Source: Burkholderiales bacterium (lineage in GTDB: Bacteria; Pseudomonadota; Gammaproteobacteria; Burkholderiales; Burkholderiaceae_C). From it: DNA of 41,598 nucleotides. Made by a program: the position numbers and the translations under genes. A model generated the notes under the pieces. The model was not told the origin of the DNA. It saw only the letters and a list, made by a program, of their open reading frames with translations, and did no database searches. How positions within the stretch are numbered: position 1 is the first letter of the stretch; each line of letters opens with the position of its first letter. The stretch covers positions 1-41,598 of the forward strand of contig QBMB01000034.1 in assembly GCA_003241965.1 (NCBI GenBank), written 5' to 3'. Below are positions 32,597-40,520 of the stretch, in pieces.

Positions 32597-32635
32597 AACC
32601 CGACTTGGGTCGGGTTGACGAGCCCGAACGGGCTC
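32597..32635. repeat. Two adjacent perfect hairpins at the end of the Rid-family gene
   Basis: First: 8-bp arms AACCCGAC / GTCGGGTT with TTGG loop (32597-32616). Second: 6-bp arms GAGCCC / GGGCTC with GAAC loop (32620-32635), whose last bases overlap the Rid gene stop codon at 32634-32636. No T tract, so not a classical terminator on either strand. It resembles extragenic palindromes. Confidence 0.5.
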
Positions 32636-33101
32636 AGCCCAGTTCGGCGATCAGTTCAATCTCCACACAAGCACCCATGGGCAACTGCGCCACGCCGAAC
32701 GCACTGCGCGCGTGAGCGCCGACGGGGCCGAAGACCTCGCCGAGGAGTTCGCTGCAGCCGTTGGTGACCAGGTGCTGCTCGGTGTAGGTGGCGGTGGAGT
32801 TGACCAGGCTGAGCACCTTGACGATGCGCTTGACGTCGTCCAGCGTTTTGCCGGCGGCCAGGCAGGCGGCGGCCAGGGTGCCGAGCAGATCGATGGCCAC
32901 GGCGCGCGCGGCGGGCTTGGCTTCATCGGTGGTCATGGTCAGGCCGAGCTGGCCGACCCAGGGCTTGCCGTCCTTGCGTGCAATGTGGCCGCTCAGGAAA
33001 ATGAGGTTGCCGGTCTGCACGAAGGGCACGTAAGCCGCTGCGGGCACCGAGACGGGTGGCAGGACGATGCCGAGTTGGGACAGCTTGTCGTAAATGCTCA
33101 T
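32634..33101 (-). CDS. Rid-family (YjgF/RidA-like) protein
   Basis: 155 residues, longer than classical RidA (about 128). RidA enzymes hydrolyse reactive enamine and imine intermediates of amino-acid metabolism. The family core is seen as GNLIFLSGHIARKDG, a long helix with DLLGTLAAACLAAGKTLDDV, and the end ARSAFGVAQLPMGACVEIELIAE, with conserved Arg132 and Glu147. The N-terminus is extended (MSIYDKLSQLGIVLPPVSVPAAAYVPFVQ), as in the subgroup usually annotated simply as RidA-family. The start at 33101 has an AGGAG site about 8 nt upstream. A TAGAAT lies 29 nt before the start. Deaminase activity is not assured in this subgroup. Confidence 0.88.
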   Translation of the reverse strand: MSIYDKLSQLGIVLPPVSVPAAAYVPFVQTGNLIFLSGHIARKDGKPWVGQLGLTMTTDEAKPAARAVAIDLLGTLAAACLAAGKTLDDVKRIVKVLSLVNSTATYTEQHLVTNGCSELLGEVFGPVGAHARSAFGVAQLPMGACVEIELIAELG

Positions 33102-33129
33102 GGGTGTGCTCCTGATGGGTGAGCGACCC

Positions 33130-33135
33130 ATTCTA
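33130..33135 (-). promoter_or_regulatory. -10 element for the Rid-family gene
   Basis: TAGAAT on minus; the start site would fall near 33123 and give a leader of about 22 nt with an AGGAG ribosome binding site. This is a conventional promoter and leader, unlike the leaderless set. Confidence 0.4.
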
Positions 33136-33171: not shown

Positions 33172-34149
33172 TCAGACTTTGGGCGCGTCCTGCTGGGCTT
33201 CGAGCAACTTCAGTTCGTCGGGCGGCGCGACCGTCACCGCCACTTGCAGGGTGTGCTCGGCACCGCTCTGGATCACGCCACGCATGGGTGAAACATCGCC
33301 AAAATCGCGCCCGGTGGCCAGCGTCACGTAGTCTTCGCCCGGGCTGCCCCAGCCGCAGCGGTTGTTGGTGGGGTCGAAGTCGAACCATGCGCCGGTGGGT
33401 GCTGGCTCCTCGCCTTCGTCCGACTCGTTCACCACCGGCACGTACACCGACACCCAGGCGTGTGAGGCATCGGCGCCGATCAGGCGCACCTTGCCGGGTG
33501 CCGGGCGTGTGAGCAGGTAGCCGCTCACATAACGCGCTGGCAGACCAAGCGTGCGCAGGCAGCCCAGCATGATGTGGGCGAAATCCTGGCACACACCCTT
33601 GCCTTGTTCGAGCGCTTCGAGCGCGGGGGTGTTCACCTCGGTGCTGGCGGTCTCGTAGGTCAAATCGGTGTGGATCAGTTCCATCAGCGCCTGGGCTGCG
33701 GCCAGCGCGGGCAGGCCGGGCTTGAATGCAGGGCGGGCGAAGGCGGCAAACGCGTCGTCGCGCGGCACGTAGGGCGAGGCGAACATGAATTCGCTGGCCG
33801 GGTCGAACGGTGCGTTGGCCCGGTAGCGGAAATGCTCACGCACACGCTCCCAGGTCATGCCGCGCCAGGGCGGTGTTTGAGGCAGCGGCTGGTGCGCGAT
33901 GGTTTCGACCAGGCTGTCGGCCTCCACCGTGAGCACGTTGTGGGTGGCCTGCAGCGAAAAGAAAGTGCGCTGGTTGCCGAACACGTCGGTGGTCTGGCTG
34001 CGCGCAGCTGGGGGCGGGTCGATGCGCAGTTCGTTGCCGATCAGGCGCTGGTACGGCGTGTCCAGCGGGCACAGGTGCACCATGTGCTGCGCCATGTCGA
34101 TCGAGCCGTGGTAGCGGTAGCGGGTGCGATGGAGGATGCGAAGGAGCAT
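33172..34149 (-). CDS. Transglutaminase-like cysteine protease/amidase family protein
   Basis: 325 residues. The N-terminal beta-domain (about 1-80; MLLRILHRTRYRYHGSIDM) is the bacterial transglutaminase N-terminal domain, followed by the catalytic core with Cys187 (GKGVCQDFAHI), His230 (DASHAWVSVYV) and Asp259 (FDFDPTNN). No signal peptide, so it is cytoplasmic. Members of this family in such loci are proposed to cleave or transfer amide bonds on peptides. The start lies 2 bases past the stop of the ATP-grasp gene, so they are translated together. It ends the three-gene amidoligase-type cluster, followed after 70 bp by the Rid-family gene. Confidence 0.9.
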   Translation of the reverse strand: MLLRILHRTRYRYHGSIDMAQHMVHLCPLDTPYQRLIGNELRIDPPPAARSQTTDVFGNQRTFFSLQATHNVLTVEADSLVETIAHQPLPQTPPWRGMTWERVREHFRYRANAPFDPASEFMFASPYVPRDDAFAAFARPAFKPGLPALAAAQALMELIHTDLTYETASTEVNTPALEALEQGKGVCQDFAHIMLGCLRTLGLPARYVSGYLLTRPAPGKVRLIGADASHAWVSVYVPVVNESDEGEEPAPTGAWFDFDPTNNRCGWGSPGEDYVTLATGRDFGDVSPMRGVIQSGAEHTLQVAVTVAPPDELKLLEAQQDAPKV

Positions 34150-34150
34150 G

Positions 34151-36751
34151 TCAGGCGCCCAAACTCTGGTTGCGCAGGTCCGCGTGGCTGAAATGCAAAC
34201 GGCTGAGTTCGTTGGAGAGTTCTCCCGCCGCCAGCTCACAGCCGTCCAGCAGCTCGGCCAGATCGCTCCAGGTGCGCAGGCCTTCGGGGCTGCGCTGCCA
34301 GTTGCTCAGGTCGGGCAGCACCCAGGTGTCGGGGTCGGGCAAGCCCTGGGCCAGCACGGCGTCTTGTGGCGTGGCGCTGTTGGCCAGCTTGGCCAGTCGC
34401 GAGCGCAGCGTCTGCACCACCCAGGCCAGTGAACGCGGGTTGTCGCGGTCCATCACCAGCAGGTCGATCAGGGCCACCATGTCGCGGCGCTGCTGGTACT
34501 GCGCGTGGAAGGTGATGGTGCTGTCGAACAGCGCCACGACCGCCTCAAAACCAGCCTGGTCGTGCACGCAGCCGTGTTCAAGCGCCAGCGAAAGCGCGCG
34601 CGAGAGCGTGATGAGGCGCTCGATGTGCCGGCCCATGGAGAGCAGGCGCCAGCCGTCGTCGTGCACCATGCGGTCGGTCTGTGAACCGGTGATGGCGGCC
34701 AGCAGTTCGCTGGCGTTCTGCAGCGCCGTCATGGCCTCTGCCGTGGCGTATTCGGCGTGGGTCGAGACGGCGGCGCAGTCGCGCGCGAAGGCGGTTTCGG
34801 TGCGCTCGATCAGGTGCCAGTGTTCTTGCGACAGGCGCTCGCGCACCTGGGAAGCGGCGGCCTTGAGCGCGCGCAGATTGAAGCCCACGCTGTGCGACTT
34901 GGTGGCCAATGGATCAGAAGCCTTGGGCGACAGCGCGGCCACCAGGTTGCGCGCGAACATGCGCGGCGATGCGCTGGCGCCCGGGGCTTCGCGGATCACC
35001 AGCGAGTTCTCGGTAGCGGTTGCGGTGAGCCAGGCCATGAGTGGGCGCGAGCTGGGCTCTTCGCCACCCAGGTGGTTGAGCACGATCTGCGCGAGGCGCA
35101 CGCTGTTCTCGGCGCGCTCGGTGTAGCGGCCAAGCCAGAAGAGGTTTTCAGCCGCGCGGCTGGTCACGGGGCGTTTCTGCTGAGCCAGCGCCAGCGTGCT
35201 GGGCGCAGATTGCAGTAGGCTGGTGTGGTCCACCGGGCCTTCGGTGAGCACCCAGCAATCGGCGCTGCTGCCGCCGCGCTGCATGGCGGCAACGAGTTCT
35301 CCGCGCGGTGCCAGGCGCACCAGGCCACCGGGCAGCACGCGCCACGAGCCTTTGCCGTCCGCCAGTGCAAACACGCGCAGCAGGGACGAGCGCGGCATGA
35401 CGCGTTCGCCCGACCAGGTGGGTGTTTGCGACAGCGGCAGCCACGATTGCACGGTGTAGTGGTCGGGGTGGCGCGCCATGCGGCCGGACCATTCATCGAG
35501 TTCGCGCTCGCTCAAGCTCTGGCCCATGGCGGTGTCCAGGCCGGAGCGTGGGTAGGTCGGCTTGATCACGCTGCTCTTGATGATGGGCAGCACTTCGCGC
35601 AAGGCCGCGTCTTCGCCGCACCACCAGGTGGCCAGCGAGGGCATGGCGAGTTCTTCGCCGAACAGATGGCGGCAGATGGCGGGCAGGAAGCCGAGCATGG
35701 CGCTGGATTCAAGCGGGGCCGAGCCGGGCGCATTGGCCAGCAGCAGGTTGCCCGCGCGCAGCACCTGCAGCAGGCCCGGAACGCCCAGGCGCGAGTCGGA
35801 GCGCAGCTCCAGCGGGTCAAGCCATTCGTCGTCCAGCCGCTTGATGAGCGCGTGCACCGGCTCCAGGCCGCTGAGTGTCTTGAGGTACAGGCGCTGGTCG
35901 CGCACGGTGAGGTCGTTGCCCTCCACCAGCGTGAGGCCGAGGTAGCGCGCCAGGTAGGCGTGTTCGAAATAGGTTTCGTTGTACGGGCCGGGCGTGAGCA
36001 GCGCGATGCGCGCGTTCTCGCCTTCGGGCGCCATGCGTTTGATACCGTCCATGAGCGCGCGGTAACTTGCGGCCAGGCGCTGCACCTTCATGCCGGCGAA
36101 GGCCTTGGGGAACTGGCGCGCGATGGCGATGCGGTTTTCCAGCAAGTAGCCCAGGCCCGAGGGCGCCTGGGTGCGCTGGCCCACCACCCACCAGCGGCCG
36201 TCGGGCCCGTGCGCCAGATCAAAGCCCACGATGTGCAGCCAGGTGTCGCCCGGCGGCTTCACGCCCTGCATGGAGCGCAGATAGCCTGGATGGCCCTGCA
36301 CAAGGGCGGCGGGCAGCAGCGCGCGCTTGAGCAGTTCCCGCTCGCCGTAGAGGTCGCCCATGATCGCGTTGAGCAGGCGCGTGCGTTGCAACACACCGGT
36401 CTCGATCTGCGCCCAGTCTTGCGGGCCGAGCAGCATGGGAAAGAGATCCAGCGCCCAGGGCCGCTGCAGCCCGGCGGAGGCATCGGCGTAGACGTTGTAG
36501 GTCACGCCGTTGTCGCGAATCTGGCGCTGCAGGTTGTCGTTGCGGCGGTTCAGATCGGCAAAGCCGTCGGTGCCGATGTGATCGAAGAAGTTGGCCCAGT
36601 GGGGCGCCAGCGCGTCGCTGGTGGACTTGCCGCCGGCGCGAAGTTCGTCGCGGTGGCCCGCATCGGCGGGCACCGACAAAGACAGAGCCCAGTCACCGGG
36701 GTTGTCGGGACTGAGCTCGTCAAATAGGGAGTCGGAGGCGTCGTGGTTCAC
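34151..36751 (-). CDS. Circularly permuted ATP-grasp enzyme fused to an alpha-E domain
   Basis: 866 residues in two parts. Residues of about 60-510 are the circularly permuted type 2 ATP-grasp domain: WALDLFPMLLGPQDWAQIETG, the LENRIAIARQFP helix, LTPGPYNETYFEHAYLARYLG and the SSVIKPTYPRSG loop. Residues of about 530-860 are an alpha-E (all-helical, DUF403-like) domain beginning SRAAENLFWLGRYTERAENSVRL, with repeated motif MGRHIERLITLSR later. The two domains are often separate genes; here they are one polypeptide. ATP-grasp enzymes make amide or peptide bonds using ATP, so a ligase on an unknown substrate is likely. It starts with GTG at 36751; a CATACT hexamer lies 8 nt before it. Cytoplasmic. 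Confidence 0.93.
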   Translation of the reverse strand: MNHDASDSLFDELSPDNPGDWALSLSVPADAGHRDELRAGGKSTSDALAPHWANFFDHIGTDGFADLNRRNDNLQRQIRDNGVTYNVYADASAGLQRPWALDLFPMLLGPQDWAQIETGVLQRTRLLNAIMGDLYGERELLKRALLPAALVQGHPGYLRSMQGVKPPGDTWLHIVGFDLAHGPDGRWWVVGQRTQAPSGLGYLLENRIAIARQFPKAFAGMKVQRLAASYRALMDGIKRMAPEGENARIALLTPGPYNETYFEHAYLARYLGLTLVEGNDLTVRDQRLYLKTLSGLEPVHALIKRLDDEWLDPLELRSDSRLGVPGLLQVLRAGNLLLANAPGSAPLESSAMLGFLPAICRHLFGEELAMPSLATWWCGEDAALREVLPIIKSSVIKPTYPRSGLDTAMGQSLSERELDEWSGRMARHPDHYTVQSWLPLSQTPTWSGERVMPRSSLLRVFALADGKGSWRVLPGGLVRLAPRGELVAAMQRGGSSADCWVLTEGPVDHTSLLQSAPSTLALAQQKRPVTSRAAENLFWLGRYTERAENSVRLAQIVLNHLGGEEPSSRPLMAWLTATATENSLVIREAPGASASPRMFARNLVAALSPKASDPLATKSHSVGFNLRALKAAASQVRERLSQEHWHLIERTETAFARDCAAVSTHAEYATAEAMTALQNASELLAAITGSQTDRMVHDDGWRLLSMGRHIERLITLSRALSLALEHGCVHDQAGFEAVVALFDSTITFHAQYQQRRDMVALIDLLVMDRDNPRSLAWVVQTLRSRLAKLANSATPQDAVLAQGLPDPDTWVLPDLSNWQRSPEGLRTWSDLAELLDGCELAAGELSNELSRLHFSHADLRNQSLGA

Positions 36752-36759
36752 TGCGCTTG

Positions 36760-36765
36760 AGTATG
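36760..36765 (-). promoter_or_regulatory. Possible -10 element for the ATP-grasp/alpha-E gene
   Basis: CATACT on minus, 4/6 consensus, ending 8 nt before the GTG at 36751 without a Shine-Dalgarno sequence. If real, the downstream two genes can be expressed apart from the DUF2126 gene. Confidence 0.3.
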
Positions 36766-36779
36766 CCCGCTGGTCTTTG

Positions 36780-36830
36780 GGCCACGCCCTTCCGGGGTGG
36801 CCGCCTTGTTGCTTCCGTCACACAAGGCGG
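36780..36830. repeat. Two abutting hairpins between the DUF2126 and ATP-grasp genes
   Basis: GGCCAC...GTGGCC arms (36780-36785 and 36797-36802) extended by CCC/GGG around a TTCC loop with one bulged G, then 8-bp perfect arms CCGCCTTG / CAAGGCGG (36801-36808 and 36823-36830) with a 14-nt loop. They share two bases, so they cannot both form fully. No T tract. They could be alternative mRNA folds in the 97-bp gap of the operon. Confidence 0.5.
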
Positions 36831-36848
36831 ACACCCCAGTCTGGACGG

Positions 36849-39800
36849 TCAGTAGCGCAGGTCCAGCGTGGTTGGGAATTCGCGGCTGCTGCTGGCCGGC
36901 TTCACGTCCATGTGGCCAGGGGTGTGCCCCATCTGGAAGAAGCGCGACATGCGACGGCTCTCCGCCTCGTAGGCGTTGATCGGGAAGGTGTCGTAATTGC
37001 GCCCGCCCGGGTGAGCCACGTGGTACTGGCAGCCGCCGAGCGAGCGCTTCATCCAGGTATCGACGATGTCGAAGGTGAGCGGCGCGTGCGACGGAATGGA
37101 GGGGTGCAGGGCCGACGGTGGGCTCCACGCCTTGTAGCGCACGCCGGCCACGTACTCGCCCGCCGTTCCGGTGGTCTGCAGCGGGATGGCGCGGCCGTTG
37201 CAGGTGATCACGTGGCGGCTGTCGTTCCAGCCGCTCACGCGCACCTCGATGCGCTCCAGCGACGAGTCCACATAACGCACGGTGCCGCCGGGCGCGCCTT
37301 CCTCACCCATCACATGCCAGGGTTCCAGCGCGCTGCGCAGGCTGAGTTCGATGCCGCGAGCGGCCACCTGGCCCACCAGCGGGAAGCGGAACTCGAAGTG
37401 CGGGTCGAACCACGCCATGTCGAACTTGTAGCCAAAGTCGGCCAGGTCGGTCAGCACATCTTCAAAGTCCATCTGCACGTAGGTCGGCAGCAGGTAACGG
37501 TCGTGCAGCTCGGTGCCCCAGCGGGTGAGGCGGCCATGCCATGGCTTCTGCCAGAAACGCGAGACCAGGGCGCGCAGCAGCAGCTGCTGCGCAATGCTCA
37601 TGCGAGCGTGCGGTGGCATCTCGAAGGCACGCAACTCCAGCAGACCCAAACGCCCGGTAGGGGAGTCGGGCGAATAGAGCTTGTCGATGCAGAACTCGCT
37701 GCGGTGCGTGTTGCCGGTCACGTCGATCAGGATGTTGCGCAGCGTGCGGTCCACCATCCAGGGCGGCATGTGGTCGCCATAGGTGGTGCGGTTCTTCTCG
37801 ATCTGCGCCAGTGCGATCTCCAGCTCGTACAGCTGGTCGTTGCGCGCTTCGTCCACGCGCGGTGCCTGACTGGTCGGGCCGATGAAGAGGCCGCTGAACA
37901 AATACGACAGCGAAGGGTGGTTGTGCCAGTAGGCAATCAGGCTGCCGAGCAGCTCGGGCTTGCGCAGGAAGGGCGAGTCGGCCGGGGTGGCGCCGCCCAT
38001 CACGAAATGGTTGCCGCCACCCGTGCCGGTGTGGCGGCCATCGGTCATGAACTTTTCGGCGCACAGCTTGGTCTGGTGCGCGGCTTCGTACAGGAACTCG
38101 GTGTGTTCCACCAGTTCGCCCCAGGTGTGGGCCGGGTGGATGTTGACCTCCACCACGCCCGGGTCGGGCGTGATCTGCAGCATTTTCAGGCGCGGGTCGC
38201 GCGGAGGCGGGTAACCCTCCAGCACGATGGTCACGCCCAGGCGCTCGGCCGTGGCCTCCACGGCGGACAGCAGATCGAGGTAGTCCTCCAGGTGCGCCAT
38301 GGGCGGCATGAAGATGTAGAGGTGCTGGATCTTGCCGCCGCCGGCTTTTTCGGCCTTGGGGCCGTTGGAGCGGTGCGGGTCGCGGGCTTCCACGCAGAGC
38401 GCGGTGCGGGTGAGCCAGGCCGCCGACTCGGCGCGCTGCGGGAAGCGCGCAGACAAGGCCTGGGCGGGTGCCGCACCAGGACCGGGCTGGCCAGGGCGCA
38501 AGCCCTCCACCGTCTCTGCATCGGGGTCGAAGTCCGCACCCTGCATCGACACCGTGCCGCCTTCGGCAAAGCCGCCACCCACCTGGTAGGGAGAGACCTG
38601 GTGCTTCACCGTGGCGCCTCGGGGCAACGGGTCGCGCGCGGTGTGCGGGTCCTGCTCAATGTGGTACGGGTAGTCGCCGGCCGAGACCCAGGGCAGCGAG
38701 TCCAACGGCAGGCGGTAGCCCATGGGCGAGTCGCCCGGTATGAGGTACATGCGCTCGTCGCGGAAGAACCAGGGGCCGGTGGACCACACGGTGCCCGAGA
38801 TGCGCGTGTAGTTGCCCGACTTGACCCGGCTCTTGCCGTTGTTGGACAACTCGCCCTCGGGGCCCGAAGCCTGCAACGGCAGCACGTAACCCACCGTGGA
38901 TTCCAGGCCCTGGGTGAACACGCGGCGCAAGCGCGAACGCTCCAGCTCGTCGTCCAGCTTGGCGTCGAACGGGTCCACGTTGACCGGCAGGCGGCGTTCG
39001 CGCCAGAGGTAGTACCAGGTGTCCTCGAAGCCGGGGGTGATGTACTGGGTGGACAGGCCGAGCTTGCGCGCGAGCGCCTGCGTGAAGCGGCGTGCATCGT
39101 CGCTGGTGTAGTGCTTCTCGTCGCGCTCGTCGGCCAGCAGCGCGGGGTTTTGCCAGATGGTTTCGCCATCGGCGCGCCAGAACATCGAGAGGGCCCAGCG
39201 CGGCAACTGCTCGCCCGGGTACCACTTGCCCTGACCCATGTGCACGAAGCCGCCGGCGCCGTATTCAGCGCGCAGGCGGTTCAGCAGTTCGGTGGCATAG
39301 CCGCGTTTGGTGGGGCCGAGCGCGTCGGTGTTCCATTCGGCCGCGTCGCGGTCGCTGGTGGCCACGAAGGTGGGCTCACCCCCCATGGTCAGGCGCACGT
39401 CGTGTTTTTCCAGATCGAGGTCGACCTTCTCACCCAGCGCCACCACGCCGGCCCATTGTTCGTCGGTGTAGGGCAGGGTCACGCGGGGTGACTCGTACAC
39501 GCGCGTCACGCCCATGTGGTGGCTGAACTCCACCTCGCACTCGTCCATGGCGCCTTCCACCGGCGCGGCACTCGATGGCTGCGGCGTGCAGGCCAGCGGC
39601 ACATGGCCTTCACCGGCGAGCAGGCCGGAGGTCGGGTCCAGGCCGATCCAGCCGGCGCCGGGCAGGAACACCTCGCACCAGGCGTGCAGGTCGGTGAAGT
39701 CCTGCTCGGGGCCGTTCGGGCCGTCGACCGATTTCACGTCGGATTTGAGCTGGATCAGGTAGCCCGAGACGAAGCGCGCGGCCAGGCCCATGTGGCGCAG

Positions 39801-40370
39801 GATCTGCACCAGCAACCAGCCGGTGTCGCGGCAGGAGCCGCTGGCCAGCTTGAGCGTTTCTTCCGGCGCCTGCACGCCCGGCTCCATGCGGATGGTGTAC
39901 GCAATGGCGTGCTGCAGTTTCTGGTTCACGTCGACCAGGAAGTCGATCGTGCGGCGCTCGGTGCGGTCCACCGTGGCCAGGTACGCTTTGAGCAGCGGCG
40001 TCACGGGCGCGGTGACCAGATAGGGCTGCAGCTCGAGTTTTTGCGCTTCGTCGTAAGTGAACGGGTAGTTCTCCGCGCGCGGCTCCAGGAAAAAGTCGAA
40101 CGGGTTGTGCACCGCCATTTCCACCACCAGATCGATCGTGACCTTGAACTCGGTGGTGGGCTCGGGGAAGACCAGGCGTGCCTGGTAGTTGGCAAACGGA
40201 TCCTGCTGCCAGTTGATGAAATGTCCCTCGGGCTCGATGCGCTGGGAGTACGACAGCACCTTGGTGCGGCTGTGCGGTGCGGGCCGCAGGCGGACCACCT
40301 GTGGGCCCAGTTTGACGAGCCGGTCGTATCGATAATGCGTGATGTGGCTCAGGGCGACGTGAATGGCCAT
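36849..40370 (-). CDS. Transglutaminase fused to DUF2126 putative amidoligase
   Basis: 1173 residues, the typical size for this fusion. The N-terminal part (1-280) is a transglutaminase-like unit: MAIHVALSHITHYRYDRLV, then Cys180 (ASGSCRDTGWLLVQ), His229 (DLHAWCEVFLPG) and Asp245 (GWIGLDPTSG). The remainder (about 300-1110) is DUF2126, assigned in Pfam as a putative amidoligase and proposed to have a glutamine-synthetase-like fold. Visible segments include LTMGGEPTFVATSD, HMGQGKWYPGEQLPRWALS, GRHTGTGGGNHFVMGGATPAD and MPPWMVDRTLRNILIDVTGN. Both a bond-breaking and a bond-forming active site thus lie on one chain. No signal peptide. No ribosome binding site or leaderless hexamer is clear at 40370. 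Upstream is the divergent comEC region. Confidence 0.95.
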   Translation of the reverse strand: MAIHVALSHITHYRYDRLVKLGPQVVRLRPAPHSRTKVLSYSQRIEPEGHFINWQQDPFANYQARLVFPEPTTEFKVTIDLVVEMAVHNPFDFFLEPRAENYPFTYDEAQKLELQPYLVTAPVTPLLKAYLATVDRTERRTIDFLVDVNQKLQHAIAYTIRMEPGVQAPEETLKLASGSCRDTGWLLVQILRHMGLAARFVSGYLIQLKSDVKSVDGPNGPEQDFTDLHAWCEVFLPGAGWIGLDPTSGLLAGEGHVPLACTPQPSSAAPVEGAMDECEVEFSHHMGVTRVYESPRVTLPYTDEQWAGVVALGEKVDLDLEKHDVRLTMGGEPTFVATSDRDAAEWNTDALGPTKRGYATELLNRLRAEYGAGGFVHMGQGKWYPGEQLPRWALSMFWRADGETIWQNPALLADERDEKHYTSDDARRFTQALARKLGLSTQYITPGFEDTWYYLWRERRLPVNVDPFDAKLDDELERSRLRRVFTQGLESTVGYVLPLQASGPEGELSNNGKSRVKSGNYTRISGTVWSTGPWFFRDERMYLIPGDSPMGYRLPLDSLPWVSAGDYPYHIEQDPHTARDPLPRGATVKHQVSPYQVGGGFAEGGTVSMQGADFDPDAETVEGLRPGQPGPGAAPAQALSARFPQRAESAAWLTRTALCVEARDPHRSNGPKAEKAGGGKIQHLYIFMPPMAHLEDYLDLLSAVEATAERLGVTIVLEGYPPPRDPRLKMLQITPDPGVVEVNIHPAHTWGELVEHTEFLYEAAHQTKLCAEKFMTDGRHTGTGGGNHFVMGGATPADSPFLRKPELLGSLIAYWHNHPSLSYLFSGLFIGPTSQAPRVDEARNDQLYELEIALAQIEKNRTTYGDHMPPWMVDRTLRNILIDVTGNTHRSEFCIDKLYSPDSPTGRLGLLELRAFEMPPHARMSIAQQLLLRALVSRFWQKPWHGRLTRWGTELHDRYLLPTYVQMDFEDVLTDLADFGYKFDMAWFDPHFEFRFPLVGQVAARGIELSLRSALEPWHVMGEEGAPGGTVRYVDSSLERIEVRVSGWNDSRHVITCNGRAIPLQTTGTAGEYVAGVRYKAWSPPSALHPSIPSHAPLTFDIVDTWMKRSLGGCQYHVAHPGGRNYDTFPINAYEAESRRMSRFFQMGHTPGHMDVKPASSSREFPTTLDLRY

Positions 40371-40394: not shown

Positions 40395-40520
40395 ATGAAT
40401 CGTCAGGCAAAGGCTTGGCCGTGGGCGCTGGGAGTGATCCTAGCAAGTCTTGCGCCAAACAACGATGACGGCACCGGGGAGCGGGTGATCCGGGGGGCGA
40501 GTGGGAGGCGCCTCTCATGA
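40395..40520 (+). CDS. 41-residue ORF with strong ribosome binding site, overlapping comEC
   Basis: A short ORF preceded by AAGGGAGGA ending 4 nt before the ATG at 40395, the best Shine-Dalgarno sequence in the window. The peptide begins MNRQAKAWPWALGVILASLA and continues PNNDDGTGERVIRGASGRRL with a final Ser. The first half is basic then hydrophobic, like a short signal or membrane anchor. Its TGA overlaps the comEC ATG (ATGA at 40517-40520). Could be a real small protein, a translation-coupling leader for comEC, or chance. Confidence 0.45.
   Translation: MNRQAKAWPWALGVILASLAPNNDDGTGERVIRGASGRRLS

Follow-up and report, generated by a model that had tools for sequence, protein, structure and literature searches.

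The question raised by this locus is what kind of bond may be made, and what kind cut, by three neighbouring minus-strand genes whose products, of 1173, 866 and 325 residues, combine transglutaminase-like (TG), DUF2126, ATP-grasp and alpha-E domains. The trio lies in the window, i.e. the whole stretch of 41,598 nucleotides analysed here, which comprises bases 1-41598 of contig C105 (51,741 bases; the contig runs on 10 kb past the window end) in the draft genome (4.9 Mb, 177 contigs) of a Burkholderiales bacterium. A first-pass annotation had seen two ligase-type domains in the trio. Our analysis leaves one predicted ligase, DUF2126, as the ATP-grasp domain fused to alpha-E is degenerate across its family, and it adds an intact stand-alone ATP-grasp/alpha-E pair just past the window, where the annotation could not see it. 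We propose tentatively, with a probability that we would place slightly below even, that the trio belongs to a five-gene cytoplasmic system making and cutting amide bonds and induced by nitrogen limitation, most likely via NtrC and sigma-54. The gene set is a known one, and the window holds an ordinary member of it.

The 866-residue protein (GTG start, 34151..36751) contains a circularly permuted ATP-grasp domain (residues 105-481, 35309..36439; CP_ATPgrasp_2, PF14403, E 9.8e-142) and an alpha-E domain (residues 530-854, 34190..35164; E 2.9e-55). Its AlphaFold2 model, in which the alpha-E domain is helical, has a mean pLDDT (predicted local distance difference test score) of 87.9, and the best Foldseek match is 3n6x (E 5.8e-32), with glutathione synthetases next; the circularly permuted ATP-grasp fold is thus confirmed by Pfam and by AlphaFold2/Foldseek. 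In this fold Mg-ATP is presumably bound by a Glu/Asn (E/N) metal-ligand pair and by residues of a glycine-rich loop, as we assign them from glutathione synthetase. In the window protein the metal-ligand motif has become Gly191-Gln192-Arg193-Thr194-Gln195 (36167..36181; Glu-Asp-Asn-Leu-Arg in stand-alone copies), and the glycine-rich loop reads KPTYPRSGLD (residues 397-406, 35534..35563; stand-alone KEVHGAGGYG).

In an alignment of 103 fused copies (not dereplicated) and 63 stand-alone copies, restricted to sequences with at least 300 aligned residues, the E/N pair was present in none of the fused copies versus 61 of the stand-alone ones, and the GG.G loop was likewise absent from all 103 fused copies, with G-G-Y-G in 62/63 stand-alone copies. 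The exceptions among the latter are cut sequences, namely a contig-truncated fused gene that was counted as stand-alone (L094) and a copy at the edge of a fetched region (L050). Both motifs are also present in 3n6x, a solved homologue of the stand-alone type, and in single stand-alone copies from Bacteroidota, Actinomycetota and a Deinococcota plasmid, and a fused copy on an Enterobacter plasmid is without them. Position 163, Asn in stand-alone copies, has become Arg in 99 of the fused copies and His in the other 4, and the Arg of the metal-ligand motif is replaced by Gln in 91 of them; Arg430, Asp468 and Trp470 (stand-alone numbering) are retained in 102 and Lys368 in 68. Because the metal ligands and the glycine loop are absent across the family, the fused ATP-grasp is predicted to be a pseudo-ligase. 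The loss of ATP-binding residues, which the annotation had named as an outcome that would refute its own reading, is thus what was found here. In the ATP-grasp tree (own sequences entered twice; sequences with fewer than 380 aligned residues left out) one branch with support 1.0 splits 104 fused from 66 stand-alone copies without error, and the inactivation therefore looks ancestral and retained. The literature searched, whose coverage did not extend to Iyer and colleagues (2009), yielded no report of an inactive alpha-E-fused ATP-grasp; the inactivity may already have been reported.

Searched for alpha-E, the organism's genome has, besides the fusion, one further match, at C105:44511-45455, outside the window. 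There a stand-alone circularly permuted ATP-grasp gene (486 residues, C105:43035-44495), which starts 1.4 kb beyond the end of the window and has EDN and GGYG both intact, is directly followed by a stand-alone alpha-E gene (319 residues, C105:44511-45470). A third transglutaminase gene after this pair is absent, the two Bact_transglu_N matches in the genome both being in the trio. In a phylum sample of 299 genomes, for which the tables of ATP-grasp and alpha-E positives are complete, DUF2126 was found in 92 genomes, alpha-E in 171, an ATP-grasp match in 171 and the peptidase-like protein Anbu in 115; the system appears widespread. Every one of the 92 DUF2126 genomes is among the 171 positive for ATP-grasp. 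Since the ATP-grasp query picks up fused copies as well, the stand-alone gene was checked separately in these 92 genomes, each of which has a documented stand-alone ATP-grasp or alpha-E gene: an ATP-grasp frame shorter than 700 residues among the matches listed in 75 (in G234 the frame is longer and a separate alpha-E is present), an alpha-E of 313-391 residues among the matches listed in a further 12, and, in the fetched loci of the last five, ATP-grasps of 483-523 residues with both motifs intact. At least two alpha-E copies were found in 85 of 91 DUF2126 genomes (own genome excluded) versus 11 of 207 others.

Among 80 named loci, which are the best 80 matches and lean to close relatives, the trio is contiguous in 69, cut by a contig end in 6, has its fused gene elsewhere in the locus in 3 and lacks it in 2; among 35 unnamed DUF2126 loci it is contiguous in 26, without the fused gene in 7, with that gene elsewhere in 1 and cut in 1. 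Genomes of the Pseudomonas fluorescens group have the trio, too. As the same order recurs in 69/80 named loci, the trio is not a chance arrangement, and the co-occurrence of the three genes that the annotation had expected is upheld; the fusions, which it took for a special condensation at this locus, are normal for these families. On the Enterobacter roggenkampii plasmid p1_120063 (90.7 kb, IncFII) the five genes stand together as a block (L157:3132-12323), flanked by arsC at one end, an IS26 element lying at some distance beyond the other. No further plasmid record with DNA nearly identical to this block was found, and E. coli genomes gave zero matches at near-identical-DNA sensitivity. In four of the seven unnamed loci without a fused ATP-grasp (L022, L026, L027 and L043), and in L021, genes for ATP-grasp, alpha-E, Anbu and TG-DUF2126 occur together, and four genomes of this group (G045, G051, G057 and G058) show a single alpha-E match. 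The pseudo-ligase is therefore common, yet some lineages do without it.

Upstream of the trio a sigma-54 (RpoN)-type promoter-like site, TGGCGCAAGACTTGCT, was identified (40442..40457, minus strand; 10/12 consensus positions), which includes the GG-N10-GC element and whose first base lies 87 nt upstream of the ATG at 40370; the stand-alone ATP-grasp has a comparable site, TGGCCCAGTCCTTGCT, in front of it. Scoring used general consensus patterns for sigma-54 and NtrC, and the surveys covered upstreams that reached a minimum length of 180-300 nt and had a recognisable start. Sigma-54-type sites scoring at least 10/12 were present in 37 of 100 dereplicated TG-DUF2126 upstreams, versus 11 of 1000 shuffles, and in 26 of 44 dereplicated stand-alone ATP-grasp upstreams, versus 4 of 440 shuffles; upstream of other genes the count was 11/622. 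The core of these sites is constant and the spacer varies among lineages. NtrC-like dyads scoring at least 11/14 occur in 16/108 TG-DUF2126 and 7/46 stand-alone ATP-grasp upstreams, versus about 1.7% of shuffles.

Nitrogen control of homologues has already been published; what is added here is the promoter survey across the families. In an ntrC mutant of Burkholderia cenocepacia the DUF404/407, DUF403 and transglutaminase genes changed by -8.2, -9.4 and -9.4 log2, and a 'large protein containing transglutaminase-like domain', which we infer to be TG-DUF2126, by -6.0 log2; these four cluster genes are listed there as common targets of sigma-54 and NtrC (PMC5491218). In Pseudomonas putida, PP_2686-2688 rose 11-37 fold in nitrogen limitation (PMC7801951), PP2685-2687 were up 2.6-11.1 in a separate study (PMC3325844), and the promoter of PP_2688, annotated as a circularly permuted ATP-grasp of type 2, was induced 3.7-fold (PMC8050072).

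The TG domains of the remaining members of the trio have their expected catalytic residues. The 1173-residue fusion (ATG start, 36849..40370) combines a transglutaminase-like Cys hydrolase domain (residues 6-246; Bact_transglu_N E 6.6e-26, Transglut_core 1.6e-14) with a full-length DUF2126, a predicted carboxylate-amine ligase (PF09899; residues 276-1172, window 36855-39545; E 0, 1334.7 bits, 826/826 positions). The 325-residue protein (33172..34149, ATG at 34149) is transglutaminase-like (Bact_transglu_N 3.5e-22, Transglut_core 4.5e-20). The Cys180/His229/Asp245 triad of the fusion and the Cys187/His230/Asp259 triad of the separate protein are intact, as had been noted from the sequence, and invariant in 113/113 and 90/90 aligned copies, respectively, the window included and TG matches below 130 bits or 180 residues left out. 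Three loci from Burkholderia and Achromobacter (L075, L095 and L097) have an extra TG gene upstream of TG-DUF2126 in which Ser replaces the catalytic Cys, an apparent second pseudoenzyme in the system. In L052 (G274) the TG (327 residues) and DUF2126 (714 residues) are separate frames, a natural split of the fusion. The placement of DUF2126 in a superfamily is taken from its Pfam name and from PMC2588565.

From these data the following division of labour may be put forward. The stand-alone ATP-grasp and DUF2126 would be the two working ligases, forming amide bonds of a peptide or gamma-glutamyl type; the pseudo-ATP-grasp/alpha-E protein, presumably a duplication relative of the active pair, would be a scaffold or regulatory subunit, perhaps with a binding site for the acceptor substrate or a dock for the hydrolase and DUF2126; and the TG domains would release or transfer the acyl group. 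The net role would be to rework a pool of amide- or peptide-bound nitrogen under nitrogen stress. The annotation's suggestion of a single intermediate passed among the three chains is neither favoured nor disfavoured by these data. The more specific proposal, that the ancestrally inactivated ATP-grasp, with Arg in the place of the metal-binding Asn, works alongside the stand-alone ATP-grasp and DUF2126 as a partner without catalysis of its own and that all are induced by sigma-54/NtrC as one unit, is possible though doubtful. If true, a ligase complex under the control of its own dead paralogue would make and remove an amide compound in nitrogen-starved bacteria. No stated product of the gene set was found in the literature searched; a fixed pseudoenzyme, a live partner pair and nitrogen-type promoter sites together give the vaguer notion of a peptide modification a concrete form, with catalytic roles assigned beforehand.

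Several observations weigh against this proposal. On the side of the ligases, the DUF2126 structure model is mediocre (pLDDT 69.7), and its several glutamine synthetase matches in Foldseek all have E values of 0.09 or worse. With family alignments built from genome relatives, hhalign compared DUF2126 with GCS2 at a best E of 0.078, over a stretch with a G.H...G match, and with glutamine synthetase gave an artefact at a ragged alignment end. One fused copy of the 103 retains Glu161, the loop lysine is still present in the window protein, and pseudoenzymes can have other chemistry. DUF2126 occurs without the fused gene in some genomes, and counts across relatives, which share ancestry, are not independent events. 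In Yersinia a stable complex of Anbu-operon proteins was not found (PMC6376114).

On the side of regulation, the sigma-54 motif was first spotted by eye and its enrichment tested afterwards, 9 of 109 upstreams have no GG-N10-GC site, the NtrC-like dyad of the window (10/14) is at chance level, and the upstream region of the organism's Anbu gene lacks a sigma-54 site. In a P. putida rpoN mutant under nitrogen limitation PP_2686-2688 still rose 14-20 fold, compared with 11-15 in the wild type, and urtA was likewise induced (11.1 versus 12.7) (PMC7801951); the PP_2686-2688 operon is therefore RpoN-independent there, or the mutant is uninformative. The promoter of PP_2685 (Anbu) was unresponsive (PMC8050072) and its transcript rose just 1.1-4.8 fold (PMC7801951). 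The published data thus speak for RpoN dependence of the homologues in one species and against it in another.

Three other explanations have to be set beside the five-gene system. The fused ATP-grasp might still be an enzyme with altered chemistry, e.g. metal-independent nucleotide binding or transfer, and the specificity of its Asn to Arg and Arg to Gln replacements, the near-invariance of Arg430, Asp468 and Trp470, the presence of Lys368 in most copies and the retention of the family as intact frames are all compatible with this; with the metal-ligand pair and glycine loop missing from every copy, and Lys368 variable, we hold it to be very unlikely. A gamma-glutamylation of amine nitrogen, in which DUF2126 and ATP-grasp load an amine on glutamate and the TG hydrolyses the product, has working models in the Puu and methylamine pathways. 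It would suit the nitrogen control and promoter sites, the joining of a ligase and a Cys hydrolase in the single TG-DUF2126 chain, the resemblance of the ATP-grasp to glutathione and glutathionylspermidine-type synthetases, and the inclusion of gamma-glutamylmethylamide synthetase (E 0.19) among the weak Foldseek matches of DUF2126. No amine oxidase, aldehyde dehydrogenase or transporter is recurrent nearby, as judged from families named by eye rather than by profile; of the 141 loci searched for them, many too short to reach that far, four from the same genus and L102 have urea transporter genes by the pair, and urea uptake is a different chemistry. We therefore regard this route, too, as unlikely.

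A role in tagging for Anbu, in which proteins receive a peptide from the ligases, the TG shortens that peptide and Anbu either breaks down the tagged proteins or reclaims the tag, has already been proposed in print (PMC5666114, PMC6376114). Anbu is absent from the window, as the annotation had it, and present elsewhere in the genome: a single match (E 4.4e-127) was found beside mutS on contig C8. The two gene sets co-occur, 113 of the 115 Anbu genomes having an ATP-grasp match (G152 and G303 have an Anbu match without alpha-E or ATP-grasp), and in some relatives Anbu directly follows the trio, or the pair plus a TG gene (L018, L020). On the other hand, Anbu was unmatched in 34 of the 92 genomes with DUF2126. 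Over the 171 genomes positive for ATP-grasp the two genes show no association (58/34/55/24, p 0.42), so that Anbu as the defining partner is not supported statistically. The gene is on a separate contig here (L017), Yersinia Anbu was without peptidase activity (PMC6376114), and no recurrent small tag-like frame emerged from neighbourhood clustering, which at BLAST 1e-8 and a floor of 50 residues is a weak test for tags. Taken together, tagging for Anbu is quite unlikely, and the nitrogen-induced amide-bond system remains the reading that we follow.

As to the surroundings, the structure of the trio given by the first-pass annotation holds: the open reading frames confirm its sizes, strand and the single base between the ATP-grasp/alpha-E stop and the 325-residue TG gene (97 bases separate TG-DUF2126 from the fused gene), and the Pfam profiles confirm all four domain identities. 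An NCBIfam search of the three proteins gave zero matches. The absence of a signal peptide also agrees with a crude hydropathy scan, rather than a dedicated signal-peptide predictor, which found no strongly hydrophobic N-terminus in the three proteins. Among the matches listed, the closest named relatives of TG-DUF2126 are from Polaromonas, Variovorax, Rhodoferax and further Burkholderiales (best rows at 67-73% identity), which makes it very likely that the organism belongs to the Comamonadaceae or stands near them. A RidA/YjgF-family gene lies directly downstream on the same strand (window 32634-33131), and RidA was matched in 21 other fetched loci, in 17 of them directly after the trio. In Limnohabitans (L081) all parts are together but rearranged, with the fused gene and TG preceding the pair and Anbu after TG-DUF2126. 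A viral origin was considered and set aside, as a viral-contig scan gave 22 pattern matches, none confirmed, and among phage records the single match was weak (E 9e-11) and confined to the TG part.

Past the trio the contig continues with a comEC-type gene (pointing away), the ATP-grasp/alpha-E pair, a RhuM-family gene and urea-type ABC transporter genes. The comEC-type gene (L016:517-3001) contains N runs and a repeated stretch, and the assembly is probably faulty there. Neighbourhood clustering showed no conserved sixth partner or substrate gene: the three largest clusters are system genes and overlapping frames, followed by the comEC family in 22 loci and then families of at most 14 loci. 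The RhuM-family gene (PF13310) lies on the opposite strand between the stand-alone alpha-E and a urtA-like gene (C105:45574-46698, L016:5574-6698), with a relative at that place in one other compared locus, from the same genus (L137, 41% identity). The transporter genes belong to periplasmic-binding and permease families by Pfam, and their urt names are our own presumed assignment. A functional urea transporter link was rejected, as the synteny is local and shared NtrC control would be a simpler reason; a metagenome study found urea domains to correlate with the domains discussed here (PMC3597751).

The system is best compared with the amidoligase sets of Iyer, Burroughs and Aravind, to which the annotation rightly linked it. 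They have the same domains, and the fusion of an N-terminal TG to a C-terminal ligase, described in 2008, is exemplified there by Rv2566 (PMC2588565). Linked ATP-grasp, alpha-E and TG genes are likewise described in papers citing Iyer 2009. The accessible parts of PMC2588565 (Iyer 2009 not being covered) hold no statement of an inactive alpha-E-fused ATP-grasp or of sigma-54 control, unlike the present analysis. The pair beyond the window is of the same type as in the Anbu operon (ATP-grasp, alpha-E, transglutaminase, Anbu), which is nitrogen-responsive in P. putida, but here the adjacent ATP-grasp and alpha-E genes are followed by no TG gene and Anbu is on another contig; the trio itself is not this operon. 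In the Pseudomonas rlo operon an ATP-grasp also accompanies a transglutaminase-type partner, but the former is RimK-related (24% identity) and the latter inactive and membrane-bound (PMC12239564), whereas here the triads of the TG proteins are intact, their sequences are free of transmembrane-like stretches and one of the ATP-grasps is degenerate. Finally, glutathionylspermidine synthetase/amidase and glutathione synthetase have the circularly permuted ATP-grasp in common with this system, as judged by Foldseek. Amide synthesis by the former is coupled to a Cys amidase, a chemistry that serves well as a model, although the hydrolase of that enzyme is of another family than the TG-like one found here, and the fused copy at this locus is without metal ligands.

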